In this document: positions 20,326 to 54,955 of the stretch, piece by piece | How positions within the stretch are numbered: the first letter of the stretch is position 1 | Layout: each line of letters begins with the position of its first letter | DNA from: Canna indica | Taxonomy: Eukaryota; Streptophyta; Magnoliopsida; Zingiberales; Cannaceae | Length of the DNA stretch: 64,000 bases | NCBI GenBank assembly: GCA_034359265.1 | Contig: CP136890.1 | Location: 41,576,501 to 41,640,500 of the forward strand | Direction: 5' to 3' | Translations under genes and position numbers: made by a program | Notes under the pieces: generated by a model | The model's input: only the letters and a program-made list of their open reading frames with translations | Database searches by the model: none | What the model was told of the DNA's origin: nothing

Positions 20326-20343
20326 CACTACATCAATAATCGT

Positions 20344-21214
20344 CATTAATAGCATGCCATAAACGCTGTCATAAATAGTGTATAGCATTATCTGAAACGT
20401 TGTTAAATCGTACGCTATCTTATGTAGGGAGGTTACAATAGCGTTTCAAAAATGCAATCAAACCATGATCTATCACTAAAGAGAGCATATTAAAGATGTC
20501 ATACAAAAATATGTTTAATTTCAACTTGTCACAAAAGTAGGTTCTCAACTTATCAACAAACTACTAAAATCAAGAACATTACATAGATCAATATATAAAG
20601 AATATTTTTATATTAAATAAAGAGTACATTGAATAAATCCAAATTACTAAAACATAACATTATCCGAACTTAGTCAATATCAACAAAAGTAGATTAAGTA
20701 TTAAGTATACATAGTAACTAGCTTGTTATAGTCAACAAAAGTATATTGTATTGTCTTCTAAAACAAAAGTAGCTAGCTTGTTATGAAATATTCCAACAAA
20801 TGTGCTTTCAAGTGCTCTCACCTTTGAAGTTTCAATTCCATAACTGCATTAAAAAAAAAAATTAATGAAGAACTGCATAAAATTTTAATATTTTTAAATT
20901 CAGGTTAAGTTTAAAATTTAAAAGACTAAATTAGATTTCATATCAAATTATGATAAGAGTAAATTGAAAGCAAGTCATCAACCTCCACATAAGTACAGAG
21001 TTATGTATATTGTCTGTCTGGTTCTCGATTGACCCATGGAAATTAAATGAGGATCTTCATGAAATATGCTAGGTGGCATAATTTGATATGAAATTTCAAT
21101 ACAACAAAGTTTATATTTAAAAAATAGAAATTAAGACGTCAAGTGTCATAATGAATAAGAATTAGAATTCATCAAAACAAGAATCTAAAGTGATTACAAT
21201 AATCAGAAACTAAT
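20344..21214. other. AT-rich subterminal region of the composite element
   Basis: ATAGC/GCTAT words near the left tip (to about 20450) fade into AT-rich sequence with no open frame. I see no gene or further repeat here. Confidence 0.5.
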
Positions 21215-22116
21215 GGCCTGTTTGGTTAGCGAAACATATAAGAAAAATTAATGCCATAAGAAATTACATGAATTAAGAATACTAAAATATAAATAGATAA
21301 AGGAAAGATCTTACTTGAAGAGATAGAAATATAGCGGAAGCAATTTTCTGGGTCTCCAGAAATAACTAGATCTTCCTCTATATCACTTTCTCAAAATGCT
21401 CTACTTTGATGGGAAAAGCAACAATGAGCTAGGGTTTCTAATCCCTGATTATGTCATGTGTGTAGAGGGGACCTAGCCTCTATTTATAATTGATTAAATG
21501 GGTCCTCTCCATCACGAGCTTCATTAATCGGGCCCACACTTGACTAATTACCCCAATCATAATTAAGTATTCCGAGCTCAAGTCACATAGATCAAATTAA
21601 ATGAGCCAATATGCATCTCAAATAGGATCATAAGGTTAATCCGTTTAAATCAAAAACCACAATTGACCGTAGCCCACAAAAAGAATATTTAAAAATAAAT
21701 AAATATATATTTTAATTAAAAAAAATTCTAACATTCTCCCACTTGGGCAAGGTCAATTGCATAACTATAATTTGAAAATATTCATTTAAAAAATGACTCT
21801 CGGGTTAATCACAAAAATATGATCATAAGAAAAATATGATCCAATATGCAACACTTATTATGACTCTTATCAACAAACCAATAATATTGTATTATAGCAG
21901 TCATCACGTCATTCTTGGATATAAGACTTTCCATGGTCACGAATATCACTGACATTGCCGACAATTGTCATTAGTGTGGAGTGTAGTATGAAAATAGCAC
22001 TCAAAATGATCCAACAATACTAATGTTATTTTCATTGTCAGTCATCATACTTTCTCATACTTTCTCTTCTATATATACCTTTCGGCAAGAGAAAGCGTAT
22101 GGTTTCAAAAAACCAT

Positions 22117-22405
22117 CATGTCCCTATACTCAAATATGGTGTCAATTAGTGGACAACTTGATTCATATGATACCGAGTCTCAAATATGCAAAACACATAT
22201 TTATAAACAAAGTCATGATACCCTAGACTCAAATATGGTATCAATCAATGGATATCTTGATTCAAATGACACCGAGTCTCAAATATGCTAAACACATGTG
22301 CATAAACATAACCAACATGTCCCTAAACTCAAATATGATATCAATCAAGGGACAACTTGATTAAATATGACACCGAGTCTCAAATATGTTGAACGCATTA
22401 TTGTG
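22117..22405. repeat. Three ~100-bp tandem repeats inside the LARD-like element
   Basis: Units start at CATG 22117, 22214 and 22316. Each contains (A/T)ACTCAAATATGGT-like, TCAAT..GTGGACAACTTGATT-like and ACCGAGTCTCAAATATG segments. Spacing is 97 and 102 bases. Confidence 0.8.
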
Positions 22406-24699
22406 ACAACAAAAAATAAAATAAATGTATTATTAAGCATGCAGTAACATAATATCTAACAATCATGCATTAAATTATTCAATAATTAGCATAAATAAAC
22501 ATAAAACTCTCACTAATCAAACACATTAAAAGAACTTTAAAAAAGAACATATTTTCAATATGTCTTTCAAAGACTATGGGCCTAAGTCCCTTGGCGAAAG
22601 GAATATGCTAATATAAAAATTATTTTTATGTGTTCAACAATAATGTCTTCTTATTTACAAGATCTCTAACTATCAAAATTTTGATTCTAAATGTCTGGAG
22701 TCTTGTAATAAGATCTACAATGTGAAGTCATATATTAATATTTTTAGGTCAAATGGCTTAATATTCAACTAGTTACTAATTAGAAAATATGTTCCTCCCA
22801 CTGATCTTCACATATATATTAATCAATTATTTTTTTCACATCCTATGAGAGTCACTATCTCATCAACAAGTAGTTTTAAAACCAGTTAATCAATGGGAAT
22901 GCATTAGTTTTCGAGAACATGTCCCCTTTAGGCAGACTGATTTTCTAGACCAACGTACACTCTAATAAATTCATCATAATATGTTAGATTAAATTATAGG
23001 GCATGTAATATAATTGAAATTGATGCTAACCAAATATTACATATTCACCTTTAGGCAGAATATTCAATCACGAAATAAAACCTCGATGAGTTAAATAATG
23101 AGAATACACTAATTTTCGAAAATCTATCATCTTTGGTCAGACAAATTTCTAGACCAATGCACACTCTTCTAACTCTATTACAAAACTTTCAGTTAAAATA
23201 TCCAATAATTCTCCTTTGGGATAAACTATTGAATGAATTAATCTGAAGCATTCCTCGTATGATAAGAAAAACCACTAATCACTACAAGTAATTTCACTTT
23301 TGCAGTAATTACAAATAATAATCGGTGAAAAACCTTATACAGGAATCAATTGCCCACATGTCAAATATTCAAATCCATAATATATATTGCAAAATTGGTA
23401 CAAGAATAAAGCACCGTAATTAATAATGAATTTAAATCAATGATCAATTCAAATTATTATTTATGTTTATGTGGTTGTAAATTATGCTAATATCCACACC
23501 TAATTGTAGTTATATTAGGCTTCACATATATATAATGACATCATAATTTGCAATAATAAATTAACATTCATGCAATCCACATAACATAAAATGTACAACA
23601 ATATTATTATGTAAGTAATAAATCACATGGATTCTACATCAAGCCAAATGTAGCAAAATTTGAATATAATAATAAATTTTACATTAATAAATCATGAAAT
23701 TAATCATGCTGAAAAATTATGATAATAAATCAACTATATTGTGTCAATTCTATAATATTATTATAATATCAGGATGTCATTGCTGCATTAGGCCTAAATA
23801 AAACTTAAAAATAAGCCTATTTATAGTGAGTGCACAGAGCTTTTATTAGCAGCGAGCTGAAAAAAGTAGAAATAAACCAATAATAGTATTGGACCCATAA
23901 ACAATGTCCAACGGCCTAGTTCGATTCCGGCACAAGATATAAAGATTTATGTAGCAATATTAAAATTTGAATACTGCAATGAAGATAAGATAAAATTGAC
24001 ATCAATAAATCATGTGATCAATTATAAGATGATATTCAATATGATAAATTGCATAGTTCATATTGGGATCAAATTCATGATCCATATCATTACACAGGGC
24101 TTCCAAAAAATTAAATACAATGAGAAAATAGGCATATTAAAATTTAAATATTTCAACAATTGTTGAGACTACAAAAAAAACTTTCATCAATAGTGGACTA
24201 AGTAAGTAGAAACGCTTCACAAGCATTATTAGACTCAAATACATCCACATGTATTAAAATAAGTAATAATTCTATCATGTATTAATATTATATCAACTAT
24301 GCATGAAGTAAAATATAGCATAGCATGAAATACAATGATAAAATAATTAATGAACAATAAATTAAGTCCTCACACGAGGTAAAATATGTCATGAAGTACA
24401 ATAACAAATTGACATTCATAAATTTTGCATGAATTAAAAAATCAAATAATTATGTCAATAGATGTAGCATGACAATAATAAATCAAAGTCAATTATTGCA
24501 TGTGAGCAAAATTAATATGATAAATTAATCTATGTCATATAGACTCATGAGTGGGTAGATAATAATATTGTATTCAAAATTTCATGCCATGATCTAATTT
24601 TGAAGTAAATTGATCAAAAACATAGTGAACCAATTAAAATTTCATTGAATCATAATTGAATCAATCAAACAATGATCAATTAAGCATGAACAAAATGTA

Positions 24700-24900
24700 A
24701 TTGAGATGAACCAAACATAATTTAGGTGAATCGGTAAAAATTAAATTGAACAAGTCAAGAAATGTGATGAACCGATTGAAAATTAAATTGAACCCGATAA
24801 AAATTAAATTGAACCAGTCAAGAAATTTGGTGAACCGATTAAAAATTAAATTGAGTCGGTAAAAATTAAGCTGAATCGGACTGAATCATTAAGCCAGTTT
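24700..24900. repeat. AT-rich short repeats (TGAACC..AATTAAATTGA)
   Basis: Variants of AAAAATTAAATTGA alternate with (A/G)GTCAAGAAAT and GAACCGATT, giving a decayed array of ~60-bp units inside the same non-coding interior. The repeat character weakens on both sides. Confidence 0.55.
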
Positions 24901-26264
24901 AATTGATTTGAAATTGAAATAAATCAGATTTCAATTCAAATACTGGACCCGGTTAATTTCATCAATAAATTGATTTAATTAAATGAAATAAACTGAAATA
25001 GACCAATCAATAAATGATTTGAAAAGAATAAATTATCAAATGGAACCGTTTAAATAAATCACTAAATCGGTTAAATTGAATGAAATAAACCAAAGCAATT
25101 GAACCAATCTTAAATTAAATTGTATTGATCAACCAAATTCCAATTCAATCACAGCCATCCATATCAAATATTTTAATCTCAGCCATTAATGTATTTTTTC
25201 TCTCACGTAACTGGGGTTCCTTAAAAAAAACCCTAATTACTTTTCTTTTTCTTGCAGCCGCCACTTGCAGTTACACCTCGGGGTTGGAGCATGCAGCATA
25301 TGCACGCCTCGCGAGACAGAGCCATAGAAAACAAGAACTGCGGGTGTCGCACAAGCGCCAAAAATATAGCATGATATTACTAGCAAAATTTATGCAGTAA
25401 AAGTCCACAGAATTCATGCAGTAAACGTACCCGGCAAAAGCAAAAGAAAATAAATTCATATCACGAAATCATGAATTTATGTAAATTGCTAAGATTCAGA
25501 GAACACACCATACTTTTGAGGCGGCACGAGAGCGACCCTTGCCGGGGCGGATGACGCCAGATTGTGGCGGTGCAAAAGCATATATAATTCAGAATCGAGA
25601 CAAAAATAAATATTGCATGATGACCAGCAATAAAGGTCTCATAAATATATATATAAATTCTGGAAAAACACCCATGCTGCATAGCCAAAGATCAAGATGA
25701 ATCAACATATTATATCGAGAAAAAAAAATTCTTAATTCACTTTAAAAAAAACTCTGATATTAATTATAAGAAAATTAATATCATAATAAATTACATGAAT
25801 TAAAAATATTAAAATGAAATAGATAAATAAAAAATCTTACTTGAAAAAATAGAAATACTATGAAAGCAATTTTTTGGGTCTCCAGAAATAACTAGATCTT
25901 CCTATACATTACTTTCTCAAAAGGCTCTATTTTGATGGGAAAAACAATAATGAACTAGGATTTCTAATCTCTGATTCTGTCATGTGTTTAGAGGGGACCT
26001 AACATCTATTTATAATTGATTAAATGGATTTTCTCTATCACTATCACGGGCTTCATTAATTGGGCCTACACTTCACTAATCACACCAATCATGATTAAGT
26101 ATTTCGAGCTCAAGTCATATTGATCAAATTAAATGAGCCAATATGCATTTCAAATAGGATCATAAGATTAATCTGTTTAAATCAAAAACCACAATTGACC
26201 GTAGCTCACAAAAAGAATATTTAAAAATAAAGAAATATATATATTAATTTAAAAAAATCTAACA

Positions 26265-27080
26265 AAATAAAGTCTATTTTCATGATTTCAATTTCACTGA
26301 AACCAACACTGATTATGAAAACATATTTGGTTTAGCGTTTTCATGAAACTGAATCGAAACCAGAATGAAAACGAAACTAGTTTTCTTAAAAAACACCAGA
26401 ATATTGTTTTCTATGATTTCGACTTTCGAGACTGTTGATTTCATTATCAAAATGCAATGACAACATTATAATTATAAATATATTTTTTATAAAATTAATT
26501 AATTTAAAAATAAATCAAAGTTTATCTAATTTTTAAAAATAAAAATCATCATTTTCAACTCAAACTATTAACTTAAATTTATAAATTAATTAAACCAATT
26601 TATATCTAATTGTCTCAAATCCAAATTTTAAATAGTTCAATTTTCTTAAAGTTGGTCTATTTATAATTAATTTAATCAAAACTAATTTCAAACCATTGAA
26701 CTTATTTTTTTAAAAAAAATTATAATAATTATTAATTAATTTTTATATCTAATTGAACAAAAAAAAAATTTAAATTAATAATAACCTAATTAATTAAATC
26801 ATATAAATATTTTATAATCATATTATCAAATATTTAATTTTGTAAACTAATTAAATATTTAATTACTATTAAAAATATTTAAGAAAAATTAATATTATTT
26901 TTTATAATCAAATAAATATTCATTGATTTTAACTAATTAAATATGATATTACTTTCATTAACAAACGTGTTTTTAAAAAATTAAAAACTAAAAATTAAAT
27001 CAAATTTTCGAAATCAAATTTTTAATTTTATTAAAATCAAATTAAAAAATAATTTTCACTAATCAAACCACGTCTAATCT
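26265..27080. mobile_element. Very AT-rich DNA-transposon remnant, possibly hAT-like MITE
   Basis: The right end, reverse-complemented, contains GTTTGATTAGTGAAA. To the left of the LARD-like element, at 21215, stands GGCCTGTTTGGTTAGCGAAA. Thirteen of 15 bases agree, so this may be one inverted-repeat element split by the LARD. CTAAT stands just outside both ends. The interior is mostly A/T homopolymer-rich sequence with no gene. Confidence 0.35.
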
Positions 27081-27226
27081 TATGCATAGTCGACAAGGTT
27101 GCAGACCTATCTCGTGTGAAGTTAAAAATATCATGAAGCAGTTCATTTTCCTGCGTTGCAAAAAAAAAGACCCTTAATTTAAGGAAGAACAAAAGCAGAA
27201 GAGTTGAAACAGTGGATTATCTTATT

Positions 27227-28513
27227 TCAGATGTGATGAGATTGAATAGTGTTGTTTGTAACCTGTGCAAGCTTGAGAAAACCTCTCCCAAGAAAACGGC
27301 TTCAAAAAGTTCAGCTGTACAGAAATTAAACAACCAAATTGAAGAGTTGCTTTTTGTTTTCCTATAAAATTAATACACAAGAAAAATTTAACACTCGTAT
27401 TATTTGGGTCCATGATGAGGCCCAGAGACCAAGCTTGTTTGATATTTTCAATTGAACTTCTGGGCATTCACCAGTTTGTAATAAAATCCCAGTTTTAAAT
27501 ATAAGGATCAAATCTATAGCATCACAAGATAGACCTAGGAATGCAAAACAAGTACCTTAACATAATCTAGGAATGCTTAACACTGTTGGTATCAATGTGC
27601 TAACTCAGGTGTAAATCCAATATCCCCAACTCAAATAAAAGGGCTATTGCTTCTCCAGTAGCAATGCGAACAGTACGATCATTATCTTCTAGCAGAGTAC
27701 AAAGGAACGAAATTGACCTGGATGGGTCGAGACAAAATATGTTCAAGATCATCTATTTAAAATAAGAACAACAAAGAGTCCACTGTCATTCCAACATACT
27801 CTTTCCAATTATCAGGATCGATTCGCCAACCAGTGATAGTTGTAAAAAGAAATGACCATGCAGATATTGCCGCTGCCAGGATAGTAGAGGGAAGTTTTAT
27901 CATTGGTCCAACCTTAATACATGACATAGTAAGCTCCAAATTAAAATGGATAAAAGATTATATTAAATAAAACGTAGCTTAAGTCAAATATTTTTCTAGA
28001 TAAGTGATAGGTTTGCATACATTGGGGCCTGATTTTGGATAAATCACACGCCACATGGTTTTCAGTGACATTTCAATTTCAGACAAATCATTTGCACCTA
28101 TAAAAGTCACAAGCGCTAGGCAATCCTGTACCTACAATACAATATCAATCTTAAAATGATGTATGTGAGTTAGCATAATCAAAGCACTATATTTATACAA
28201 TTTAGAATTTGAAGAAGGAGAGGGAGGCATACTGATGCTTTTTTTACTACATCAGATCCAGTTATTAGAGCCTGAGATAGTTGGGGCACCATTACCGGTA
28301 TTGGTATACCTATTCTTCCATTATCTCGTGCATCGGTATGGTACCGATACGTACCTACCGGTATTTAGAACCTTGCAGTGTCAAGTAAATTCACTCGTGC
28401 TTAAGACTTGAATGAGTGAAAGATGAACTCACTTATTTTCAACAAATGTAAGAAGCACATGCTCTTCAAATGCATTGACAAGCCCCCACAAAGCCATCTC
28501 TCTGGTAGATCCC
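27227..28513 (-). pseudogene. IFRD-like gene fragment, middle and 3' exons
   Basis: Minus-strand exons resemble the interferon-related developmental regulator (IFRD) family. 28433-28513 (STREMALWGLVNAFEEHVLL) continues in phase from the exon at 43769. 28233 to ~28290 encodes PQLSQALITGSDVVKKAS. 28021-28131 encodes VQDCLALVTFIGANDLSE. 27800-27912 has AAAISAWSFLFTTITGWRID; ~27605-27717 has SISFLCTLLEDNDRTVRIA; 27227-27314 has QLNFLK then LGRGFLKLAQ. Junctions keep GT..AG and reading phase, for example GA|GTATGT joined to AG|G. It is broken: the exon before PQLSQ is missing and replaced by ACCGGTA-type repeats near 28300-28380, and an extra C near 27298 shifts the frame of the last exon. The final domain is absent. 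Plant IFRD proteins are reported in stress responses; no function is expected here. Confidence 0.85.
27315..27604 (-). other. Intron-like sequence between IFRD-like exons
   Basis: No exon between FELGILDLHLS (stop near 27603) and the CTGAAC exon is recognisable. At least one exon that normally lies here in the family (between the RIA-GEA helix and QLNFLK) seems to be missing. Confidence 0.45.
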
Positions 28514-28728
28514 CTTTATCATGAAAAATAAGTCACAAGTTAAACCGACTCTAGAAATCTCATAAATGTTAGTGGTAGAAGTAATGAGAATTTTAACAAC
28601 CACAAAATGACAAATTTAACAGAGAAAGTCTGGTGTGATAAAGAGCATTAAATAATAGTGCACAGAGATGACGAGTGAAATAAATTTAAGAAATACATAT
28701 CCAACTAACATGATGCTCATTCATTGAA

Positions 28729-29095
28729 CAATACTGAAATAATGGGCATCAGCAACAGCTCTAATTGTTGCTAAACCGTTGCTGAAAACCATCAGCAACG
28801 ATGTGCAACAGCTCCGCCCGTTGCAACGGAGCCGTGGCAAAAACACGTGTTTTGATAATTTAGCAACAGATCAGCAACGGTCGCTCGGGTCGTTGCTAAT
28901 AATACTATCAGCAACGGTTTTGCCACGGACCCGATTTCATTGCTGATAATAATTATTAGCAACGGCTCGCGTGTCCGTAGCAACGACATTAATGAAAGAC
29001 CATTGCTGTAGGTCTTCAGCAATGGCTTTCGATACACTTTTAGTAACGCCTTTTCCACGGACGGCCATAGGAAAGCCGTTGTTGATTACTACATA
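28729..29095. repeat. Left terminal and subterminal repeats of the CACTA element
   Basis: Repeated GCAACGG/CCGTTGC words in both orientations. In active En/Spm-type elements such motifs bind the TNPA-type protein. The left tip has drifted (CAATACTG instead of CACTACT), so it may no longer be a good transposase substrate. Confidence 0.8.
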
Positions 29096-29374
29096 CTGAA
29101 ACCGAAAAAACTTTAAAATTCCAAATTTCCATTAATACATTGATACATTATCTGATACATAACTCACACACCCATACACCTATACATACATCCATTTACA
29201 CATCACAAATACACCCAGATATATCAAAACAATTATACTTATATTTATAATTATCCACGATCGAATAAAAACTATTCAAATGCAAAATTTAAGTATCAAT
29301 ATTCAAACAAAATAAAACTAAAATATATATAGTATCGAAGTAACAAAGTCAATATAACAAAAAAATAATAAATC
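29096..29374. other. AT-rich spacer inside the CACTA element
   Basis: Between the subterminal repeats and the TNPA-like gene; ACATCACAAATACACCC-type low-complexity sequence. Nothing else seen. Confidence 0.5.
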
Positions 29375-30892
29375 TCACGATGACGATGGAGGATGGTCTG
29401 GATCATATGACGGAGTCTGGAGTGCCTGGGTGTACACCGGCGTGGACTGACTCGAGGACGATGGATCAGATGATGCTGCTCCGGAATGACCTGACAAGTT
29501 GCGTAGCATAACTTGCATATCTGCCATCATCTGACTCTGACGCTCCATCAACTCAGTCTGACGCGCAACCGTCTCCTCCAGTGTCCTTATCCTGCTACTA
29601 TGATCATCTCTGGACCTAGAGGTTGACGGCCGCTCACCAACATGCGGAGGGGTCGGTGCCCCAAGTGGCCATAGCACGACTCGCGCATAACCACTATCTG
29701 CAAAACCATACACGCGGCCGTGGTCCCAGCCACCTGCAGCATCAACCCACACTGCTGCGTCAAAGTCCTCGGGGGTGCCTCCGCTCTGTATCATCATCTG
29801 ACTGTAGGTCTCCTACTCGAGTTTAATTTTTTGTTTAATATTTTTCATAAAACTTAAATTATAAATATATAATGAATAATTTAAACAAATATACTTACCA
29901 TAATAAATGCAGCGCGGTTGTCGACGTACTCCCCCGTCCCATGCACTCGACGGTGTGTCCGCTCAAACACCGCCATCGGGGAGGGTCGCTGGACAGTCCC
30001 GTCGTCCGCTACCATCGTCTACATTTATAAAACAAATACATTAATTAGTACACAGAGTAACAAATAAAATATAAAATTAAAATTAAGGTATACTTACCAT
30101 ACGGTTCGCGTGCACAGCAAATGCAACAGAGCCGCCAATGTGACGCGCTCCTCCCCCCGACATGCAGTTTCTAGCCGCAGTCCTAAAAACCTCCTGCCAT
30201 CGATCCGTCGACCATAATACCACGAGCTAGTCCCATATATCCGGAGTAATCCAATCGGGTCGTATCCCCGAGTCTCCGCGATGTTAGTGGTCCCAGCTCG
30301 GGCCATCGCTTGGGACCAGGCCTGCCCCAGTTGTCTGTTGTACCTCGCCCAGGAAATAGCCTCCCAGGCAGCGTAAATGAAGGGCCTCTGGTCCTCGGCC
30401 CATGTATAGCGAGCCTGCAAAATAATAATATCAGTACCAATATTAATCATCATGCATGTATAAAAAAAAATTAATATGTGCCTCAAACTCGCGTCATAGC
30501 ATATCGACGTGCTCACTGGGCATGTGAGACCACGTGGGCCATGCCCCGTGCATATATCGTCGAATGATAGAAGAAATGCTCCTTGGCACTTCTTTTGCTC
30601 AAACCTGCACAAAAAAAATAAAATTTAATATTATATTATGATATAATGAATTTTAATGATTCATAATTCATGATAATTACCGTTCCCCAATCACGCTAAT
30701 GAATCTGCGTGACTCTGCGGCTGGTGGAGGCTGCCACCTGTTCGGCCCGCGTGGCCGCCTGCGACTGGATGTACTAGCCTCAGCAGTATCAACGGCAGGA
30801 GGATCAACGTGCCCAGTGAGTGCTGGAGTCTCACTGATCGGAGACTCTGAAGCTCTTCTACGGCAATAACCACGACCAGACATATCTGTCAA
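29375..30892 (-). pseudogene. TNPA-like (Transposase_24 / Ptta-En/Spm) gene remnant
   Basis: Three blocks on the minus strand. 30677-30892 starts MSGRGYCRRRAS, a basic, Ser/Pro-rich N-terminus ending GPNRWQPPP. 30094-30612 covers the conserved core: an RRYMHGAWPTWSHMPSEHV segment in one frame and, after an intron-like gap, YTWAEDQRPFIYAAWE, QLGQAWSQAMARAGTTN, RGYDPIG. 29375-29797 is the C-terminus with a coiled coil (LEETVARQTELMERQSQMMA) and a Ser/Pro tail. A stop and frame changes occur in the core (after HVDML and beyond RGYDPIG), but AT-rich introns between the blocks look natural. The family supplies the subterminal-repeat-binding protein of CACTA elements. Confidence 0.75.
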
Positions 30893-30912
30893 ATAGGCAT
30901 ATAATTAGATTA

Positions 30913-32839
30913 TTATATATATAGTAAAGATATATTTAATATAAGATATACTTTAGAATTATTCCTCATCATCTGAGAAATAGTCTTCAAATTCTTCATC
31001 TTCTTCCTCTTCTTCGTCTTCTCATCTTCTTCATATTCTTTATCTCCAGCTTCCTCAATTTCATGATCGTCATCATCAGCATATTCAACTTCTAATTGAA
31101 TTGACGTTGTGTCTGCATCCTCGAGTATTGGAATAATACGATCTACAGCAGGAGGATCATCTTGTTGATAGAAACCATCTGTCACATCAGGTATCGGCTC
31201 ATTTTCTCCTACTATCGAATCAATTTTTTCTCTACCTTTAGTCTTACAGACTACATGCCAATATGTTCTATCTTTATTTCGAGTCGGATACTTCGCGTAA
31301 TATACTTGTTCGGCTTGTGATGCCAATATAAAAGGCCCATTTGCTGCCAATTTGAATTTGTAATTAACCTCAACAAGTTTATATTTTGGATGAACTTTCA
31401 TGCCCCTTTCTGTTGTATCAAACCAATGACATCTAAATCGGATCATTGATTTTATGTCGAAGTAGTGCAACTCTATCACTTCTTCCACCGGTCCATAAAA
31501 ATTCATATCACATTCAACATAGGTTGTCCCTTTCACGCAGACCCCGGCATTCACCGTCTTCTTTGTAAATGCATATTCCACCGTGTGAAATTTGTATCCA
31601 TTAATAAAATATCTGCTATAACAGGACACTAGTCGCGACGGTCCACTAACAAACTCAAATATTCTTTCATCTATTTCAGCTTGGTGATCTTTGCTATAAG
31701 CTTGAATCCATGTAGGGAAATCACGATTCTGTAATCTCTTCAATTCTTGATCGTTGTGAATAGAGTATTTTTGCACCATCTCAATGTCAAATATTTCAAT
31801 GAATTGTTCAATCTCTGGACAATTGAGTAATACATACAAGTGTGTCAAATGATACTCTTCATCGCTTAAGTGTCAAGATGGACGAGAACCAAAAGCACAA
31901 CCAGAGTGACAAAATATATTTAAACGTTCATCTGAATGTCGAACTCCCCCGTCGTCGTTACATGGAAGACGATCAAATCTTGTATGTACTGTCGATTCAA
32001 AGTAAAATGAGCAGAATGTTGAAATTTCTTGGATGATATACGATTCAGATATTGATCCTTCAACAGCTGCGGTGTTCTTTACTTTTTTCTTCAGACGATT
32101 CATGTATGTTTCAAATAAGTACATCCACCGATATTGAACAGGGCCACCAACTCGTGCCTCGTATGCCAAGTGTATCGGTAGATACTCCATCGAGTCAAAA
32201 AATATAGGAGGGAAAAACTGCTCCAGCTTGCATATGATTTCAACAATATTACTTTCAAGTGTTGACATATCTTCGACTCGAAGGACATTTGCACAAATGT
32301 TTCTAAAAAACATACTTAATTCAATCAACGGACCCCAAATATTATCAGGTAGAAGATCTTGGAATGTGATCGGAAGCAATCTCTGCATGAATACATGACA
32401 ATCATGACTCTTCATCCCTGATATTTTGCAATCATCGACGTTCACACATCGAGATAAGTTTGAAACATATCCATCGGGTAATCTGAGTTCTTTTATCCAT
32501 TGATAAACATCTTTGATCTGTTGTTTTTTAACACATACGGGGCCTTCGATTTTAGATATCGTCCGTTGACCTCTTGTAACTCCAACTCTGGTCTCTTACA
32601 AAGTATTTTCAGATCATGTTGGGCTTTGACATTATCTTTAGTTTTTCCGAAAACATCCATCAAAGTGTTGAAAATATTATCAAACACATTTTTTTCAATG
32701 TGCATGACATCTAAATTATGTCGAATCAGTAATGAACTCCAATAGGGCAATTTAGGAAGTACGTTACGTCTAATCGAAACTCATTCATTAAAGCTCCACG
32801 ATCAAGACATCGGTACATCCAACTTCGATCAGCCGACAT
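30913..32839 (-). pseudogene. TNP2-like CACTA transposase lacking its catalytic core
   Basis: From the start codon at 32839 comes MSADRSWMYRCLDRGALMNE, the N-terminal transposon-associated domain (PF13963-like). After only ~25 codons and a frame change it becomes KLPYWSSLLIRHNLDVMHIE, the 3' end of the tnp2 domain. Then follow a DUF4218-like part (31873-32445: KSHDCHVFMQRLLPI, FFPPIFFDSMEYLPIHLAYE, GGPVQYRWMYLFE) and a DUF4216-like C-terminus (30913-31848: YSRYFINGYKFHT, VEYAF, RTYWHVVCKTK). In intact TNP2 proteins several hundred residues holding the catalytic region lie between the first two parts, so this is an internal-deletion derivative. Further frameshifts occur at about 32450 and 31860. 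Confidence 0.85.
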
Positions 32840-32883
32840 GATTCTGTCAATCAATGATAATTTCTTTGGTTAATGCCTTTAGG

Positions 32884-33942: not shown

Positions 33943-33944
33943 CT

Positions 33945-34161: not shown

Positions 34162-34164
34162 GAA

Positions 34165-39596: not shown

Positions 39597-39599
39597 TTT

Positions 39600-42280: not shown

Positions 42281-42282
42281 CT

Positions 42283-42515: not shown

Positions 42516-42527
42516 CTCTGATATCAA
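42515..42527 (-). promoter_or_regulatory. Primer-binding-site-like sequence
   Basis: Minus-strand TTGATATCAGAGC, near to TGGTATCAGAGC (initiator-methionine tRNA type), placed beside the LTR-like repeat. Confidence 0.5.
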
Positions 42528-42529
42528 GT

Positions 42530-43457: not shown

Positions 43458-43768
43458 GATCAGAACTATACTATGAAAGAGCAAGAAAGTCTTCTAAACT
43501 TCATTTAATGTTGGAATTTTCACATACAAAAGTAGAAATTACGTGCAAATTACAAGATGTAACCTATAGAAGAGAATATTCATGCTCGTTAACATAAATT
43601 TGGAAGACATTAGAAATGATTTATTTCGTACAACATTTTGAAGCAAAATTAGACAAGAGAACACACACAAATAGCACAAATACAAAAAGTGAAGTTATTT
43701 TCAAGGAAAAGGAAAGTTTTCAGGCATGGGTGATTATACAAAAAAAAATAGAAAAAATAAGAAAGTAC

Positions 43769-44167
43769 CTCTTTTCATCGAGCGCATCAATATACTTCTC
43801 TAACTCGAACTCCTGGGAGTTGATGTATTCGATGTCATTAGTCAGCGCCGGCTCCGACAAGCCTGTCGAACTGGAGTTCACGCTGTCATCATCGCTGATG
43901 TCAAGCTGAGCACCACCTACCTTTCGCCGGTGACCTGCATGATCGAGATTTCAATCAAAAATAAATTTCCCCCAGAATAACCCCTACCAATTTCAAACAG
44001 TTTTTATTCGAACTTGGGTCAGATCATTGCTCAATTATGATAAAAAAGATTGGATCTTTTTGGCACACCAACCGCCAAAAGATTCAACCTTTGTAGCAAA
44101 CTAATGGTCAACAAGGTGAACAAAGCATCTAACATAAAATTCAACAGAGCAACTTACTTTTCCCCAT
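43769..44167 (-). pseudogene. IFRD-like gene fragment, first two exons
   Basis: Exon 1 is the start codon and three more bases triplets (44158-44167, MGK plus one base), then GTAAG. Exon 2, 43769-43934, follows a CAG acceptor and reads SHRRKVGGAQLDISDDDSVN, then SSSTGLSEPALTNDIEYINS and ELEKYIDALDEKR before a GT donor. The order MGK..., an acidic-serine patch, an E(K)YIDALDEKR helix and then GSTRE (exon at 28433) is the N-terminus of plant IFRD proteins. Phases across 44158/43934 and 43769/28513 agree. The intron between exons 2 and 3 is now 15.3 kb and filled with transposons and the helicase fragment. Confidence 0.85.
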
Positions 44168-44728
44168 GGAGAAAGCGCTGAAACGTAAGAACCAGGGTTG
44201 TTAGTGGCGATTCCAAAATGAAGCGGGGGAATCGAATGCTATAGAGTGCTGAGAGGTGAGATTCACAAGGGCGCAGTTAGAAACCACCACGAGATTAATT
44301 CGATTGCATAAGGGCAGAGCCATGTGGTGATTGGAGCTAATCGGGGTGGGACGAGGAGTGGTTGTTGGTTAGAAAACCAATGGAGAAGGGGGGGGGGGGA
44401 ACTGACGAAGAGGGGAAGAGAGAACGAGAGATCGCAACGATTTCACTATCCTTGGTCCACCCAGCAGGCGCCGGGAGCTCGACGATGACGACCTCCCCCT
44501 CTCCCTTTGCCTTCTCCGTCATGGACTCTCGGCGAGCAGGAGAGACGAGCCATGGACTCTAGTTGGCGGCGATCGGGTTGAGGTTTTGTCGCCAAAGGAG
44601 AAGGGGGGCGGACTGGGGTTTAGGTTTTGTCGAGTGAGGGAAAAAATAAGGGAGCAAGGCTTTTTGTTGTCGACGGGAAATAAAGGAGTGATTTATCCTG
44701 CGTTGTTGAAAGTTTAGCTATTGTTAAC
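44168..44728 (-). promoter_or_regulatory. 5' flank of the IFRD-like fragment
   Basis: Probably leader and promoter captured with the gene: G/C-richer than its surroundings (44400-44600) with a G-run at 44390-44399. Short frames on both strands here have no family match. No clear TATA box. It ends at the gypsy insertion. Confidence 0.4.
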
Positions 44729-47266
44729 TGTCATGCCCCAAACTCAGGGTTACGTGACCGGCCAGGGTATACGTGTCTATACCCTGCAGCCTAACTCGTG
44801 CACATGCCAACTCATAAAAGATAGCAGAAGAAATAACAGTTTTTAATATAAAAGAGAACCCAAAACTGAATTCATTTAAAACGATAAAGTTTTAGCAAAA
44901 AGTTCAAGTGCGGAAATAAATGGATTAAAGTCCAACAGTTCATTTTAACAAATAAAATTTGAAATGAAAGACATGAACGTCCCCAAGGGACTACAACTCC
45001 AAATCACCACACAGGTGTATGACAACTACCAAAGACTCGACTACGACCTCTAACTAGGACTGCTATGAGATCAATGTGGCTCATCTGCCCTCCAGCCGCG
45101 CCAAGTGCTCCAGCCCACCTCACTGGTCAGGCTCTGCAAAAAAACAAAAAAACGACAACGGGTGAGTTCAAAGAACTCTGTGAGCGGTTCTTCCAACCCC
45201 CACGAGAAACCAATCATAGAGATATAGCATAATGTAAAACACCTATCTCAAAAAGGAAAAAGGTCACAAGGGGTGTGGCTAGCTATCAGGTCATCTGGCC
45301 ACCACATGCCCGTAGGCAACCAACACTCTAGCAGTGAAGTATAACAGGCCTAAGCCTACCATGCCTTAAGGCAACAAATCATACTCAATGGTTACTAGGA
45401 TAATTGGGATTGGCCCATCTGAACTTATCTTATAACAAAGAAACTCGGGAGCAACCAGGATTTGCCCGTCCGAACTTGTTCCACGAGACGCGAATGAACA
45501 ATCGGGATTCGCTCGTCCGAACTTGTCCCTTTAAGATATTACAGGAAAAATCAGGATTTGTCTGTCCAAACTTATTCCATAAAGAAACTCAGGAGCAATC
45601 GGGATTTGCCAGTCCGAACTTATTCCACGAGAAAATACACGAACAATCGGGATTTGCCCATCCAAACTTATTCCAAAGAGATCAAGCAGGAATAATCGGG
45701 ATTCGCCCATCCGAACTTATTCATTTAAACACATATTGGGAATTAACCATCCAACCTTCCGGGCCATGCCCGCAATCCGGCTCCTATCTGAGCCTCTCCG
45801 CCATTCATAAAGGTATGACGCAATATGACCTAAGTCAAGTGTCTTCTACGGTGTCTTAGGGATATCTTTATTGGGAACGCTACAACACCCAATACCCGAT
45901 CCCAACTCCTAGACCCGTAACATCATAAACTCATGAGGTTTTATTTCATGCATAAACTTTATTTGTTAGTTCATAATAAATTATGTTGCCCCTTGAATTT
46001 TAATTATGCAATTAAAATTATCATCACCAAGTTTAGGGTTTTGTTTTAGGGTTTTATTTTCAGTTTACTGTTGAGCCCAAAACTGGTGTGCCCAAGTCGA
46101 ATCTAACTTCCAAAGTGTGACCTATGGATCCAAACTATATTTTCTGGTCGAAATGATAGGTTACATGACTATGTTCAGTAAAATATACATATCTCAACAA
46201 TATTTTCAAAATCAGCCCTCAATCAACAATTCAACATGAAATTTTCAGCAAGATTAAGTTGCGTATCATGGTAATTAATCCGAAATTCTCAAAAATTAGA
46301 GTCTTAATTACTATCAAAACAAAATTCTAATATTTGAGATAAATCTTACAACATTCATGTTTATTAAACAAGACTAACAAACATCATCAACATATTTAAA
46401 CAAGAATCAAGCTTCATGATCAAAAACCCATATCAAGAACACACATGGCATCAAGATCAAAACCTTAACTTTGTAAAACATGAATTCTATCCAAAAATCA
46501 CATATTAATTACTAGGCATGCATTAACATATAGGAACCTAAATTGATAAGCAATTCAAGGCATAGATCTCAAGAATTCACAAGAGTCATCTCTTAGGTAT
46601 TTAATCAAACACCTAGAGGGCACCCCTTCTTCCACCTTGGCTGAGCACCCCTAGGGTATTCCTAGGGCTGCTGAGCCACAAAGGGGAAACCTCGGATTCC
46701 CTCCCACGAGACGACACAAGATTTCGGCTATCAAAACACAAAATTGATGGGAAACGATCAAGAATGGCACAACGCCCAAACCGGCTCAAGAACACGAGGA
46801 AAACCCGAGAGAAGGAGGGGTAAAACCACTCACTTGATTAGGAAGTAGGAATAGAGAAAAACTCCCAAGCGGCGGCCTCCGAATCCGACCTCAAAGGATG
46901 GCGGCTCGCCTCAAACAAAGGAGGAAGGGGCGGCGGTGGCTTCAAGCTTCAAACACATGCTTAATTAACTCCAAATTCGCTAACCCGACTAAGCTTAATT
47001 AACTCAATCTAACCCCATGCCCCACCTAAACATCAAACACATGCACACCAATGCAATACAATTTAATAAATCAAACACACACAATAGAATAATTAAATAA
47101 ATTTATCTACGCGGGAAAAGAAATCGCATAATTCATATTCCTACTTACCCGAGCTTGCGAGCTCGCATCGGACTATGAGTCAACTAGGCTCGACCTCGAA
47201 CTAGCCTGCTAGGCTGACAAACACAAACAATAATGGAAAATCAATAATAATATATAGGATATTACA
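44729..47266 (-). mobile_element. 3' LTR of the Tekay-like element
   Basis: TGTCATGCCCCAAAC ... TATAGGATATTACA (plus strand). Compared with the other LTR it lacks ~0.25-0.3 kb between about 46947 and 46985. The missing part corresponds to 54320-54605 of the 5' LTR and contains the TATA box and the start of the leader. Confidence 0.9.
45404..45722. repeat. 48-bp minisatellite in the LTR, seven units (six in the other LTR)
   Basis: Core CGGGATTTGCCC(A/G)TCCGAACTT recurs at about 45410, 45457, 45504, 45551, 45599, 45647 and 45696. In the 5' LTR, six units lie between 52825 and 53090. The period is a multiple of three, so a frame with a repeated SGFA..PNLFHE pattern stays open (45404-45859). I regard that frame as a by-product. 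Confidence 0.9.
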
Positions 47267-47280
47267 AATCTCTCTCCTTA
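47267..47280 (-). promoter_or_regulatory. Polypurine tract of the Tekay-like element
   Basis: Minus-strand AAGGAGAGAGATT directly before the 3' LTR, matching the tract AAGGAGGGGGGATT of the related element at 11372. Confidence 0.8.
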
Positions 47281-47316
47281 AAGAAAATTCGTCCTCGAAT
47301 TTTTGGAAAAAGAAAC

Positions 47317-48843
47317 TTAAGGACTCACCAGATCATCAAACAACAAAGGATAACGCTCCCTCATATCCTGCTCCACCTCCCAGGGGGCCTTCTGCCTGGA
47401 ATGGTGCTCTCACCTTACCTTGACCAAGGGAATCTCCTTGGACCTTAATTTTCTGATCTGTCGGACTAACACCTCAACTGGTCGCTCCTCATAGGAGATT
47501 GTTGAATCCACCTCTACTGCGGTAGGCTCAATCACATGGGACTCATCTCGAACATATTTCTTCAGCATGGATACATGGAATGCCGGATGCACCCGGTCCA
47601 TATTGGGAGGTAAGGCCAACTCATATGCTACAGCTCCCTTACGTCTGAGAATAGGAAATAGCCCAATGAACCTAGGGCTCAGTTTTCCTTTCTTACCAAA
47701 CCTCACCTCCCCTTTAATAGGGGATACCTTGAGGTACATCATGTCCCCCTCAGCAAACTCTACCTCATTGACATTTCCATCCGCATACATCTTTTGACGA
47801 CTTTGAGCTGCCAATAACCTCTCCCTGATTAATTTCACCTTTTCTACTGCCTCCTCAACCAGGTCAGGTCTCATCATAAGGAAATCCCCTTCCTCAAACC
47901 AGCCTACGGGCGACCTACATCTCCGCCCATACAATGCCTCAAAAGGGGCCATCCCGATGCTGCTATGATAGCTGTTATTGTAGGCAAAATCAATCAGGGG
48001 TAAGTGTCTCTCCCAACTACCCTCCAAATCCAAGACACATGCTCTCAGCATGTCCACTAATGTCTGAATGGTCCGCTCCGACTGACCATCTGTCTGAGGG
48101 TGAAATGCAGTGCTGAATCGAACTTCAGTGCCCAGCGCCTCCTAGAAAGATTGCCATAATCGAGCTGTAAACTGAGTACCCCGATATGAGATGATCATAA
48201 TAGGAACACCTTGATAAGCGACGATCCGGTCCAAAAACAACCTCATATACTACTCAGTCGAAAAGGTCATTCTGACTGGTATGAAATGTGACGTCTTGGT
48301 TAGGTGATCCACCACTACCCAGATAGAATCATTGTCCTTCCCAGACTTTGGCAACCCTGCCATAAAATCTATGGTTATCTTCTCCCATTTCCACTCTAGT
48401 ACTTCTAGGTTCTGGAGAAACCCTGCCAGCTTTAAATGCTCAACCTTAACCTGCTGACACACCAGGCACATAGACTCGAACTCGGCCACCTCTCTCTTCA
48501 TATCTTTCCACCAATAATTCTGCCTTAGATCACAATACATTTTCGTGGCTCTCGGATGCATAGTGTATGTGGATCGATGAGCCATCTCTAGCACTTGCCT
48601 GCGAACCTCAGCCATATCTGGCCCCTGTTCTTAAACCTCAGAACATCATCCGAGTCAACACCGAAACCATTATCGGCATCGCCTCTCCTGGCCAGATCCT
48701 TAGTGAGTGCACAGAAAGCATCCTCCTACTATGTTGCCTGCAGCATGTCTACCAACATGGACTGCACCCTTAGGTGAGCCACCAACGCACCAGAAGCTGA
48801 TACTGACAAGATTGCCCCGTCATCCAAACACATGGCCAAATCC
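47317..48843 (-). pseudogene. Integrase and chromodomain of the Tekay-like element
   Basis: 48250-48615 holds the zinc-binding part (MAHRSTYTMH and CLVCQQVKVEH) and the first catalytic aspartate (ITIDFMAGLPKSG). Between 48250 and 48057 the core continues with two stops and reads IISYRGTQFT where the family has SDRG, so the second catalytic Asp has become Tyr. HPQTDGQSERTIQTL with the catalytic Glu follows. 47410-48057 gives FAYNNSYHSSIGMAPFEALY, PNMDRVHPAFHVSML and QIRKLRSKEIPLVKVR. There a TGA replaces the Trp seen in the related element, cutting off the chromodomain, which remains readable (EVEQDMRERYPLLF) to a stop at 47317. Neither integration nor chromatin targeting is expected. Confidence 0.88.
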
Positions 48844-50808
48844 TAAGCTAATGGTCTCCTCTTGATAGCCAAATGCGCTAGACTACCCATAGACTTCCTG
48901 CTCAAAGCATCAGCCACCACATTAGCCTTCCCTGTATGGTACAAGATCGTGTAGTCATAATCCTTCAAAAGTTCAAACCATCTTCTCTGCCTCAAGTTCA
49001 ACTCCTTCTGGATGAGCAAATACTGGAGGCTCTTATGATCAGTGTATATCTCACATGCCTCACCATAAAGGTAGTGATGCCACAGCTTCAATGCGAATAC
49101 CACTACTGCTAGCTCAAGATCATGAGTCGGGTAATTCTTCTTGTGGACCTTCAATTGCCATGAGGCATAAGCAATCACCCTACCATTCTGCATCAACACA
49201 CAACCCAAGCCGACTCGGGAGGCATCACAATAAACAACAAACCCTCCCGAGCCCGAGGGTACTGCTAGAAGTGGTGCCAACGTCAAGCGATCCTAGAGCT
49301 TCTGAAAGCTCTCCTCGCACTTACTCTCCTCGCAATCATGGAGAAATTCTCTATAAATTTCCTATAATAACCTGTCAACCCTATAAAACTGCGAATCTCT
49401 GTGACATTAGTCGGCCTCTTCTAATTCTGAACTGATTTTATCTTTGTGGGGTCCACCTTTACCCCCTCCCTGGACACCACATGACCAAGGAACCCCACAC
49501 TCTCTAGCCAGAACTCACACTTGGAGAATTTGACATATAATTTGTGCTCCCTGAGAGTCTCCAGAACTACCTTCAAGTGCTCAGCATGCTCCTCCCTGCT
49601 CCTGGAATATATCAAGATGTCATCAATAAATACCATCACAAATTTAACCAAGTATTCCCTGAACACTCGGTTCATCAGATCCATAAATGTTGCAGGTGCA
49701 TTAGTTTGCCCGAAGGACATTAGCAGGAACTCAAAGTGCCCATACCTCGACCTGAAAGTAGTCTTAGGGACGTCACTGTCCCGGATCATCAACTGATGGT
49801 ACCCTGACCGCAGGTCAATCTTGGAAAACCACTGAGCTCCCTGAAGTTGGTCAAATAAATCATCGATCCTGGGCAGCGGGTACCGATTCTTCACCGTCAC
49901 CTTATTAAGCTGCCGGTAGTCTATGCACATCCACATGGATCCATCCTTCTTTTTCACAAAGAGTACTGGATCACCCCAAGGCGAAACACTTGGACGAATG
50001 AAGCCCAACTCGAGCAGCTCCTATAACTGGGATTTCAACTCCCTTAACTCAACTGGTGCCACCCGATACGGCGGGATGGAGATCGACTTGACCCCAGGCT
50101 GCAAATCAATACAGAACTAAATCTCCCTCTTTGGAGGTAACCCTGACAACTCCTCTGGAAACACATCAGAGAACCCGCATACCACGGGCGTCCCCTCAAT
50201 GTCCCTAGCCGCACCTCCGTCTCCCTCTACCACAGACACAAAGGTCAAGAAGGACTGACATCCACCCATAAGTAGCTTTCGGGCCTTGAGAGCCGAGATG
50301 GCCACTAACGAGTCTCCTCTTTCCTCACCATAGAAGGAAAACTGGGGCAATCCAGGCTTATTGAATGTCACAGTCTTAGCCCTGCAGTCCATTGAGGCGA
50401 AATGGTCTGCCAACCAGTCCATACCCAAAATCATAGTCTTATCGGCAGGAGTGTCAATTCGGTCATAGCACGTGCCCACAAATGATCACCTCGCAGCCCC
50501 GAAAGTCTATCTGCCAGTACAGAAATGCCCGTAGGCATAGACACTACAAGAGGCAAATCAAGTACAGAGGGTTTCCCTATCAAATTAGCAGCAAACAAAG
50601 CAGATACAAAAGAATGTGTAGCACTTGGATCAAACAAAATATAGGCAATAGTGGAACCAACAATAAGGTTACCTGACACTACTGCCCTGGATGCCTCAGC
50701 GTCCTCTTGGTTCATAGAAAATACCCGTGTAGCTGGCCTCTTTGAACCACCAGCTCGCTGGCCTCCTCCCTGAGTTTGGCCCCATTGAGCCACGGAACCT
50801 ACTGACAT
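48844..50808 (-). pseudogene. Protease, reverse transcriptase and RNase H of the Tekay-like element
   Basis: 50431-50808: aspartic protease with DPSATHSFVSALF at the active site, where the usual motif is D(S/T)GA. 50117-50479 continues with MILGMDWLADH, then a GFSDVFPEELSGLPPKREI linker. 49421-50008: RT with [53 protein letters not shown] and the catalytic [11 protein letters not shown]. 48843-49286: RNase H with [43 protein letters not shown] and DALSRK. Each block is open but they lie in different frames with short gaps (50008-50117, 49286-49421), so at least three frameshifts or stops are needed to pass. The motifs themselves are well kept. Confidence 0.9.
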
Positions 50809-51934
50809 CGGTGTCTTTCCTCTGGTCTGATCAAGCTGTTAACTGCCCTTGTCAGAACAATCCTTTTGTAGTGCCAAGCTTGCCCACAGCTAAAACATAC
50901 ATCTGAACGTCCCCAGTAAGCTACCCAGTGCTTCTGGTGACATCGGTTACACGGCTGCGTCCCAGGCCTCCGCTGCAATCCTCCTGATGATGCCCCCGGT
51001 CCCGAGCCCATGTGGCCTCTAAAACTGCTATGACCTCCACCCTATTGTGGATTTACTGCCCTGTGAGTCCCCTCAAAGTGAGCTGGCTGACCCCCCGAGT
51101 GCTAGGGCCAAAACTTCTTCTTCAATGGTCCATCATGCCTATCTGTTTGTACCAGTGCCTCCTTTCGGCGATCTACAACTTGAGGAAAAGAAGTGTCCTC
51201 CGTGTAATGGATAAGTCTGGCGGTCTGCGACCTCAGTCCCTCGATGAACCTCTTGACTTTGGCGGTCTCTGTGGCTATTAAGGTGGGATGATACTTCGAG
51301 AGTCGAGTGAACTCCATCTCATAGTCCATTACTAACATACTGTCAGTCTGGCGCAGTAGTTCGAATTCTTTCGCCCGCTTGTCCCGGACGCTCAGCGGCA
51401 GATACTTCTCCATCATAGTAGCTTTGAACTCCTTCCAAGTAGGGGCGGTGGATCTGCTACTCCGCGGTCCCTCCAGGTGTTAAGTTAATCCTTGGCTGGT
51501 CCTCTTAGCTATAACCCGATCAATCGAGCGATCGTCTCAGAAGAACAACCGAGCTCCCTATATAGCTCATAGCAATCCCCTAGGAAACTGGTGACCTCCA
51601 CCCGCTGATCTGTCCCTGTATACTCCAATGGCCTGAATGCGACAAAATTTGCATATGAAGGTGCTCTGGGAACTCTGACCACCAGTGCCACTAGCTGGAC
51701 TACCTTCGGTACTGCGGGTGCTGCCGGTACCAATTGTGGTTGCTACCTCAGTTTTTGCTCCCTACGGAGTGCCTCAGTCAGCTCAGCCACTCGGGCCTGC
51801 AACTGCACAATCATGGGATCCCGTCCCACCTCCTCCCGGGCTTGCGGCTGTCTCCCATGACCCCGGCCCCGGCCTCGGCGCTCTGTGGAGTTGCTATCAC
51901 TATCACTCCTTACGGTATCAAAGGCCTCCATCAA
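50799..51934 (-). pseudogene. Gag of the Tekay-like element
   Basis: Starts at 51934 (MEAFDTVRSDSDSN, then an RGRGHGR basic patch and a leucine-rich helix), shifts frame near 51740, and continues as FRPLEYTGTDQ, EVTSFLGDCYELYRELGCSS, then 51102-51416 with KYLPLSVRDKRAKEFELL and VKRFIEGLRSQTARL. The zinc knuckle at ~50880 reads CFSCGQAWHYKRIV: C, C and H are present, but the last Cys of CX2CX4HX4C is lost. At least three frame breaks. Confidence 0.85.
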
Positions 51935-52128
51935 TCTGGAATCACTAGAAAGAAAAAATCATAATTAGACAATTTAATCCACCCTAACATTTTTGCAAAC
52001 TTAACCACAAGTCGCGTTAAGGTGCAAACTTAGCCCATTGATCTCATAACATAACCCTACCATATACCGACACGTTAGCAATGCCCTATACGGTAATAAC
52101 TCTAGGTCATAGTCAGATCGAACCACAT

Positions 52129-52140
52129 GCTCTGATACCA
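52129..52140 (-). promoter_or_regulatory. Primer-binding site (initiator Met tRNA)
   Basis: Minus-strand TGGTATCAGAGC, a perfect complement of the plant initiator methionine tRNA 3' end, four bases from the 5' LTR. Confidence 0.93.
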
Positions 52141-52144
52141 TATT

Positions 52145-54891
52145 ATCACACCCCAAACTCAGAGTCACGTGACCGGCCAAGGTATACTTGCCTATACACC
52201 GCAGCCTAACTCATGCACATGCCAACTCATAAAAGATAGCGGAAGAAATAATATTTTTTATTATAAAAGAGAACCCAAAATTGAATTCATTTTAAATAGT
52301 AAAGTTTTAGCAAAAAGTTCAAGTGCGGAAATAAATGGATTAAAGTCTAACAGATCATTTTAACAAATAAAATCTAAAATGAAAGACATGAACGTCCCCA
52401 AGGGACTACAACTCCAAATCACCACACAGGTGTATGACAACTACCAAAGACTCGACTACGACCTCTAACTAGGACTGCTATGAGATCAATGTGGCTCATC
52501 TGCCCTCCAGCCACGCCAAGTGCTCCAACCCACCTCACTGGTCAGGCTCTGCAAAAAAACAAAAAAACAATAACATGTGAGTTCAAAGAACTGAGAGAGT
52601 GGTTCTACCAACCCCCACGAGAAATCAATCACAGAGATATAGCATAATGTAAAACACTTATCTCAAATAGGAAAAAGGTCGCAAGGGTGTGACTAGCTAT
52701 CAGGTCATTTGGCGACCACATGCCCGTAGGCAACCAACACTCTAGCAGTGAAGTATAACAAGACTAAGCCTACCATGCTCTAAGGCAACAAATCATACTT
52801 AATGGTTACTAGGATAATCGAGACTAACTCATCCGAACTTATCCTATAACAAAGAAACTCGGGAGCAATCGGGATTTGCCTGTCCGAACTTGCTCCACGA
52901 GACACGAAGGAACAACCGAGATTCACCCGTCCAAACTTGTCCCTTTAAGATATTTCAGGAATAATCGGGATTTGCCCGTCCGAACTTATTCCTTAAAGAA
53001 ACTCGGGAACAATCGAGATTTGCCCATCCAAACTTGTTCCAAAGAGATCACGCAGGAATGATCGGGATTCGCCCATTCGAACTTATTCCTTTAAACACAT
53101 GTTGGGAATTAACCATCCAACATTCAGGGCCAAGCCCGCAATCCGGCTCCTATTCGAGCCTCTCTGCCATTCATAAATATATGGCGCAATATGACCTAAG
53201 TCAAGTGTCTTCTACGGTGTCTTAGTGATGTCTTCATTGGGAACGCTACAACACCCAATACTCGATCCCAACTCCTAGACCCGTAACATCAGAAACCCAT
53301 AAGGTTTTATTTTATGCATAAACTTTATTTGTTGGTTCATAACATATTATGCTGCCCCTTTAATTTTAATTATGCAATTAAAATTATCATCACCAAGTTT
53401 AGGGTTTTATTTTCAATTTACTGTTGAGCCCGAAACTGGTGTACCCAAGTTGAATCTAACTTCCAAAGTATGATCAATGGATCCAAACTATGTTTTCTAG
53501 TCGAAATGATAGGTTACACAACTATGTTCAGTAAACTATACACATCTCAATAATATTTTCAAAATCAGTCCTAAATCAACAATTCAGCATAAAATTTTCA
53601 GCAAGATTAAGTTTTCAACATATCATGGTAATTAATCCGAAATTCTCAGAACTTAGAGCCTTAATTACTATCAAAACAGAATTCTAATATTTGAGATAAA
53701 TCTCACAACATTCATCTTTATTAAACAAGACTAACAAACATCATCAACATCTTTAAATAAGAATCAAGCTTCATGATCAAGAACCCATATCAAGAACACA
53801 CATGGCATCAAGATCAAAACCTTAACTTTGTAAAACATGAATTTTATCCAAAAATCACAGAGTAATTACAAGGCATGCATTAACATATAGGAACCTAAAT
53901 TGATAAGCAATTCAAGGCATAGATCTCAAGAATTCACAAGAGTCCTCTCTTAGGCATTTCATCAAACACCTAGAGAGCACCCCCTTCTTCCACCTTGGCC
54001 GAGCACCCCTAGGGTATTCCTAGGGCTGCCGAGCACCCCTAGGGTATTCCTTGGGGAAATCTCCGGTTCCCTCCCACGAGATGACACAAGATTTCGGCGA
54101 TCAAAACACAAAATCGATGAGAAACAATCAAGAACGGCACAACGCTCAAACCGGTTCAAGAACACGAGGAAAACCCAAGAGAAGAAGGGGTAAAACCACT
54201 CACTTGATTAGGATGAAGGAATAGAGAAAATCTTTCAAGCGGTGGCCTTCGAATCTGACCTCAAAGGATGGCGGCTCGGCTTAGAGAAAGGAGGAAGGGG
54301 CGGCGGCTCCAAGCTTCAAGAGAGGGGGCGGCTCGCCTGCACCAAGCCGGCGGCTTGGCCTCCAAGGGAAGGGGAAGAAGAGGGGAAAAGGAAGAGGGCT
54401 CGTTTGTTGGCTGCTTGAGTGCGGCAACTCCAAGAGAGGGGAGAGGGGTGGCTGGCGGCTCGGCTGCTCTTCTCTCCAAGCAGCTTGTGCGGCTCCAATA
54501 GGGAGCTATATGCCAAAGGGGGAGGTTTTATACTCCCCTCCTAAAACCTAATCCACTAACCCTCTTAGCAAACCTGCATCCGCCTCGAGCCGAATCCAAA
54601 CCCATTAACCCGACTAAGCTTAATTAACTTAATCTAATCCCATGCCCCACATAAACATCAAACACATGCACACTCATGCAATACAATTTAATAAATCAAA
54701 TACACGCAATAGAATAATTAAATAAATTTATCTATGCAGGAAATTTTTTTGCATAATTCATATTCCTACTTACCCGAGCTTGCGAGCTTGCATCAGACCA
54801 TGAGTCGACTCAGCTCGACCCCAAACTAGCCCGCTAGGCTGACAAACACAAATAATCTTGGAAAATCAATAATAATATCTAGGATATTACA
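52145..54891 (-). mobile_element. 5' LTR of the Tekay-like element
   Basis: Plus-strand start TATCACACCCCAAAC (the TG has mutated to TA) and end CTAGGATATTACA. Minus-strand TATAAAACC at 54524-54532 is a clear core promoter, followed by a GC-rich leader (54260-54500). Confidence 0.9.
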
Positions 54892-54955
54892 TTAATGATA
54901 GCGTTTCGGTAGAATGCTATCGTTAAATGCTATAGAAAGCCCTAAATATTATAGT
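54892..54955. repeat. Right terminus of the composite CACTA block
   Basis: ATAGCGTTTCGG, GCTATCG and GCTATAG words, tip TTATAGTG at 54955. Separated from the rest of the block by the Tekay-like insertion. Confidence 0.7.

Follow-up and report, generated by a model that had tools for sequence, protein, structure and literature searches.

The window, by which we mean the whole 64,000-nucleotide stretch of DNA analysed here (G000:C1:41576501-41640500), contains a CACTA element between whose tips lie pieces of two host genes, one IFRD-like and one MTR4/HEN2-like. An earlier note on this sequence had read the arrangement as one CACTA element carrying two captured genes. Our comparisons with the rest of the genome (753 Mb in nine contigs, with a gene and repeat content that points to a plant) argue for a different history. 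We consider it very probable that this is a nest, in which a Pack-CACTA element with a single captured gene (IFRD) later received an LTR element, itself the host of a truncated HEN2-carrying CACTA, together with other repeats.

The outer CACTA element and its target site

The outer element spans 20326-54956, with CACTAC at its left start and TAGTG at its right end. The start given in the earlier note (20326) stands, while its end (54955) falls one base short. Two of its other border observations were borne out: ATAGCAT is read at positions 24-30 from both tips in the tip alignment, and ACG (20323-20325) and ATG (54957-54959) lie just outside them, forming an imperfect target duplication with one substitution, a C-to-T change at a CpG. 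Limited terminal similarity had been named as the weak point of the reading, and a formal alignment of the two outer tips indeed yielded a weak, above-chance likeness (local score 32; 1 of 500 shuffles as good).

Both tips recur across the genome. The first 133 bp of the left terminal region (20326-20874, plus strand), which is common to family members, match at least 39 scored places besides the window (at least 40 in all), each from base 1 or 2; the last 65 bp (right tip, 54892-54956, plus strand) likewise match at least 39 scored places besides the window, or at least 40 listed places with the window included. Pairing the listed left and right places (40 each) within 50 kb gave 10 combinations against ~0.13 expected, all ten in the correct strand and order and none in a wrong one; the window accounts for one of them, and a left tip is common to two. 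We fetched 16 family loci (~9.8 kb each from the left tip), eight of which have an exact 3-bp duplication (L020, L024, L026, L027, L028, L030, L031 and L032; judged by eye in L027 and by computation in the other seven). L018 retains two of three duplication bases, the right end of L017 is damaged, and the right tip is missing from the fetched stretch at six of the 16 loci, one of which (L023) has it 10.8 kb off. Nine measured relatives are 3.1-7.1 kb in size, and further tip pairs lie 4.8-20 kb apart. The outer element is a CACTA-type insertion and a member of a multicopy CACTA family with paired tips; the other genomic copies and the 3-bp duplications agree with what the earlier note's reading predicts.

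Pfam scans of 15 distinct selected ORFs from the family loci found no family above its cut-off in a stretch known to be inside an element. A Transposase_23 (TNP1/En/Spm) match in L021 (1454-1909; 19.6 bits, below the 21-bit cut-off), 1.3 kb inside the family left tip, is possibly a remnant of an autonomous relative. Other coding similarities were seen at these loci. Inside the outer-family element of L031 (C8:57399183-57409182), an ORF at 4268-4597 has WD40 similarity, including to Rrp9 / U3-55K; this WD40/RRP9-like DNA recurs at several other loci, some of them beside repeats, and a 100% identical 2.2-kb copy lies ~74 kb away. L029 holds an NPH3-like ORF match (1420-1890; 25.1 bits against a 27-bit cut-off) beside the family left tip, with placement inside the element not shown, and L018 a pectate lyase domain (8648-9319; 26.8 bits against a 24-bit cut-off) ~1.4 kb outside its outer-family element.

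The outer element sits in a solo LTR (20206-55799, plus strand) with GAAAG flanking both ends (20201-20205 and 55800-55804). The left part (20206-20325) ends in the target triplet ACG and the right part (54957-55799) begins with its counterpart ATG. With the flanks joined and one triplet copy kept, the resulting empty site aligned across the junction in every one of the 40 genome LTR copies scored, at 86-90% identity (from 8267 first-look candidates). Two LTR copies within the window, near 14.6 kb and 57.6 kb, likewise match the joined flanks across the junction, in their case with a one-base gap that stems from one duplicated base retained in the joined sequence. An origin of the halves from two different LTR copies is ruled out by the GAAAG on both sides together with the empty-site alignments, and the insertion thus lies within one LTR, as had been claimed. 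Elsewhere in the window, 3097-6934 and 6938-10775 are tandem copies of a 3,838-bp unit, 99.9% identical, which reflect either a very recent duplication or an assembly effect.

Capture of IFRD DNA and later insertions

Between its terminal regions, the outer element carries ~3.5 kb of captured IFRD DNA comprising 5' flank, exons and introns. Four of five tested exons match IFRD, one of them above the curated cut-off, and the donor was found at C6:74728959-74734144, with main matches of 89-95% over exons, introns and 5' flank; the claim of an IFRD-like piece with 5' flank and introns captured by a CACTA insertion has thereby gained an identified source. Since exons continue at the C6 locus beyond the 3' end of the captured part, this locus is the donor or very near it. 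It is apparently a complete gene, as judged from its exons alone; the family search there reads through one TAG, probably within an intron. No outer-family tips were found in 20 kb around this donor. A paralogue on C8 is ~70% alike, and a genome search with the largest IFRD part gave matches solely in the window, on C6 and on C8, with no further copy of the piece.

Comparison with the donor resolves the captured DNA into four minus-strand parts: the 3'-most part, an intron (21089-21212); exons and introns with deletions (27079-28728); a third segment (34162-34895); and exon 2, exon 1 (start codon at 44165-44167) and 5' flank (43463-44447). Relative to C6, the window piece lacks stretches at 27572/27573 and around 28290-28379. 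On the right, donor sequence runs to 44447 and the terminal sequence shared by family members (44451-44729, plus strand) begins at ~44451, which fixes the border of the capture to within 3 bp. At the left end, family sequence could be followed as far as 20874 and donor sequence sets in at 21089, leaving 214 bp (20875-21088, plus strand) in between. Over 245 hand-picked gap-free codons, piece and donor differ by a dN of 0.039 and a dS of 0.073.

Three blocks of the window (21213-27078, 28729-34161 and 34896-43462) are absent from the C6 donor; at the points where the window shows GAA and GAACT twice, C6 has one GAA and one GAACT-like (AAACT) site. As the donor lacks these blocks inside the IFRD piece, they arrived later. 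The first is AT-rich and contains a direct-repeat pair (21237-21733 and 25765-26264), which we take, by eye, to be Copia-like LTRs inside a PIF-like repeat. The second, on the minus strand, is a CACTA insertion with the 3-bp duplication GAA and remnants of DUF4216 and DUF4218, the usual companions of CACTA. The third is a minus-strand LTR element with the 5-bp duplication GAACT and a small insertion in its right LTR at ~42817-43383; its orientation, edges and PBS/PPT positions are presumably as we placed them by eye. A fourth later arrival, a Gypsy-type retrotransposon with an LTR pair of ~2.5-2.7 kb and a reverse transcriptase remnant, occupies 44730-54891 (minus strand) in the right terminal region, and the relatives L024 and L030 are without it. 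An Rfam scan gave 0 matches.

These later insertions account for the 34.6-kb size of the outer element. The earlier note had expected ~14 kb holding both genes after their removal; the remainder comes to about 4.6 kb and holds a single gene, and tips and IFRD DNA explain all of it except the 214 bp (the ~4.6-kb and ~3.5-kb figures were calculated with borders a few bases wider than the coordinates given here). The IFRD piece is at a distance of 0.066 from its donor, and the LTR pairs diverge by 0.051 (HEN2-bearing LTR element), 0.087 (Gypsy-type) and 0.112 (Copia-like). The last two values exceed the IFRD value although both elements must be younger, for which unequal mutation rates are the likely explanation.

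The HEN2/MTR4 piece and its vehicle

The helicase piece (36149-39357) retains introns and derives from C9:15128397-15133260, to which it matches at 90-95%; at that locus there is a long N-terminal exon and, downstream, a DSHCT domain, one part of which was read through two stops. Exons of both gene pieces were found on the minus strand, so the same orientation reported by the earlier note holds. The HEN2 piece occurs, with more than 1 kb in total each, at no fewer than seven other loci (C1 36.5 and 44.3 Mb, C3 71.3, C4 33.2 and 76.5, C7 31.1, C8 64.8), and a further match of 387 bp lies on C5. Among the matches listed, all four other HEN2 copies that span the point lack ~275 bp present in C9, including one exon, and the break of this deletion, read directly, is the same in the window and in L033 (C4:76.47 Mb). 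A 51-bp stretch (36100-36150) is directly attached to the piece in the window and lies ~210-220 bp from it at six of the seven other loci. With a C9 donor, at least seven other loci, and shared junctions and deletion, the captured host DNA has multiplied with its element. Besides, a second and larger deletion (query 1521-2849) is common to the copies at C8:64768760-64771022 and C4:33216202-33217973, a hint at a sub-lineage.

In the window, this piece is found between the two LTRs of one element, as would be expected if an LTR retrotransposon, rather than a second CACTA, had captured it by transduction. However, its introns are kept even though piece and element read in the same direction. L033, which is 95% identical to window 38856-42016, has the same chimeric DNA well past the gene piece and through 42016, yet the LTRs of the window element have no match in it, and it ends in a CACTA tip (at 1155) that resembles, over a 31-bp alignment, the window tip at 35285. 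Moreover, 11 further loci among the matches listed have the 51-bp flanking stretch without the gene piece. We regard LTR transduction as very unlikely and rejected it on the L033 evidence. Since L033 shares DNA beyond the piece, has a CACTA tip and lacks a match to the LTR element, we conclude on sequence grounds that a putative second CACTA family, its tips unlike those of the outer family, carries the HEN2 piece. The window would hold a truncated member of it (35285-42016, minus strand), with a tip at 35285 and the other end missing. One tip type has been seen, at two loci (window 35285 and L033 1155), and a second tip or target duplication appeared in no copy read.

The same data bear on the proposal of one ~14-kb CACTA element that captured both gene pieces. 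The two do lie between one tip pair in the same orientation, and according to a published account (PMC8903248) a single Pack-CACTA can capture several loci. Against this, the HEN2 piece came in the later insertion with the GAACT duplication, a block that the IFRD donor does not have, and it recurs at the seven or more other loci without IFRD, with other tips in L033. The donor comparison refutes a single two-gene capture, unless a clean loss of the block from the C6 gene took one duplication copy with it, and we hold this reading to be highly improbable. The idea that IFRD is native to this place and was broken up here by transposons is almost certainly wrong: introns, start codon and 5' flank are kept, but just 3 bp separate the piece from CACTA terminal sequence, it lies in a split LTR for which an empty site is known, and a gene with additional 3' exons exists on C6.

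The HEN2 distances are 0.037 (window piece to donor), 0.040 (L033 to donor) and 0.042 (window to L033), and from their similarity the copies would have spread at about the time of capture. The dN and dS of the HEN2 piece are 0.020 and 0.051 (194 hand-picked codons).

Order of events and comparison with known systems

Under the nested reading, a CACTA element in which no transposase of its own is recognised would have captured part of the host gene IFRD and then transposed into a solo LTR; family tips, target duplication, empty site, donor and right border together demonstrate the capture and the move. Other mobile elements would then have landed inside it, namely the AT-rich two-layer insertion, the CACTA with transposase-associated remnants, the LTR element and the Gypsy-type element, all established as later arrivals by a donor or relatives without them. 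A CACTA of the second family would have taken up part of an MTR4/HEN2-type helicase gene and increased in copy number, with a truncated member now inside the LTR element. Here, capture and multiplication are demonstrated by other loci that share the piece, its junctions and the exon deletion, and one tip type at two loci points to a CACTA as the vehicle. Both captures may have followed the Pack-CACTA route set out in published accounts, in which neighbouring insertions are mobilised as one unit and inner ends are lost (PMC13317346; PMC8903248). Transposase was presumably supplied in trans, and neither captured piece is likely to make its parent protein now. It would be a long shot to suppose that the HEN2-piece copies which a CACTA family has spread, from a gene for a nuclear RNA-surveillance helicase, are a source of small RNAs that lower the activity of the parent gene and thereby ease the removal of transposon transcripts, and that nesting of two elements of this sort could eventually yield a mobile two-gene chimera.

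With donors, target sites and empty sites known at base level, it becomes possible to read in which order the layers of such a deep nest arose. Gene pieces between one transposon tip pair need not share one capture event, and donor comparison is therefore needed before multi-gene captures are counted. Tips and target duplication are those of CACTA (En/Spm) elements in general, and the element at 28729-34161 has DUF4216/DUF4218, whereas the outer element differs in its host DNA and in having no recognised transposase. A soybean CACTA element, described by Zabala and Vodkin in 2007, reportedly has several host gene fragments within one element. Host gene fragments inside a CACTA element are thus common to both cases, but here there is one gene per element, and nesting brought them together. 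Closest are the Pack-CACTA or Pack-TYPE elements (PMC8903248; see also Catoni et al. 2019), which are non-autonomous, as the outer element presumably is too, and have in common with it CACTA tips, a 3-bp target duplication and captured host DNA with introns; gene capture by CACTA elements is published (PMC8903248), and the earlier note also called it known. In the present case, members of two unrelated families came to be stacked through later insertion, which gives two captures the appearance of one. Each is one more instance of an already known process; the two captures were separate, and insertion placed one inside the other.
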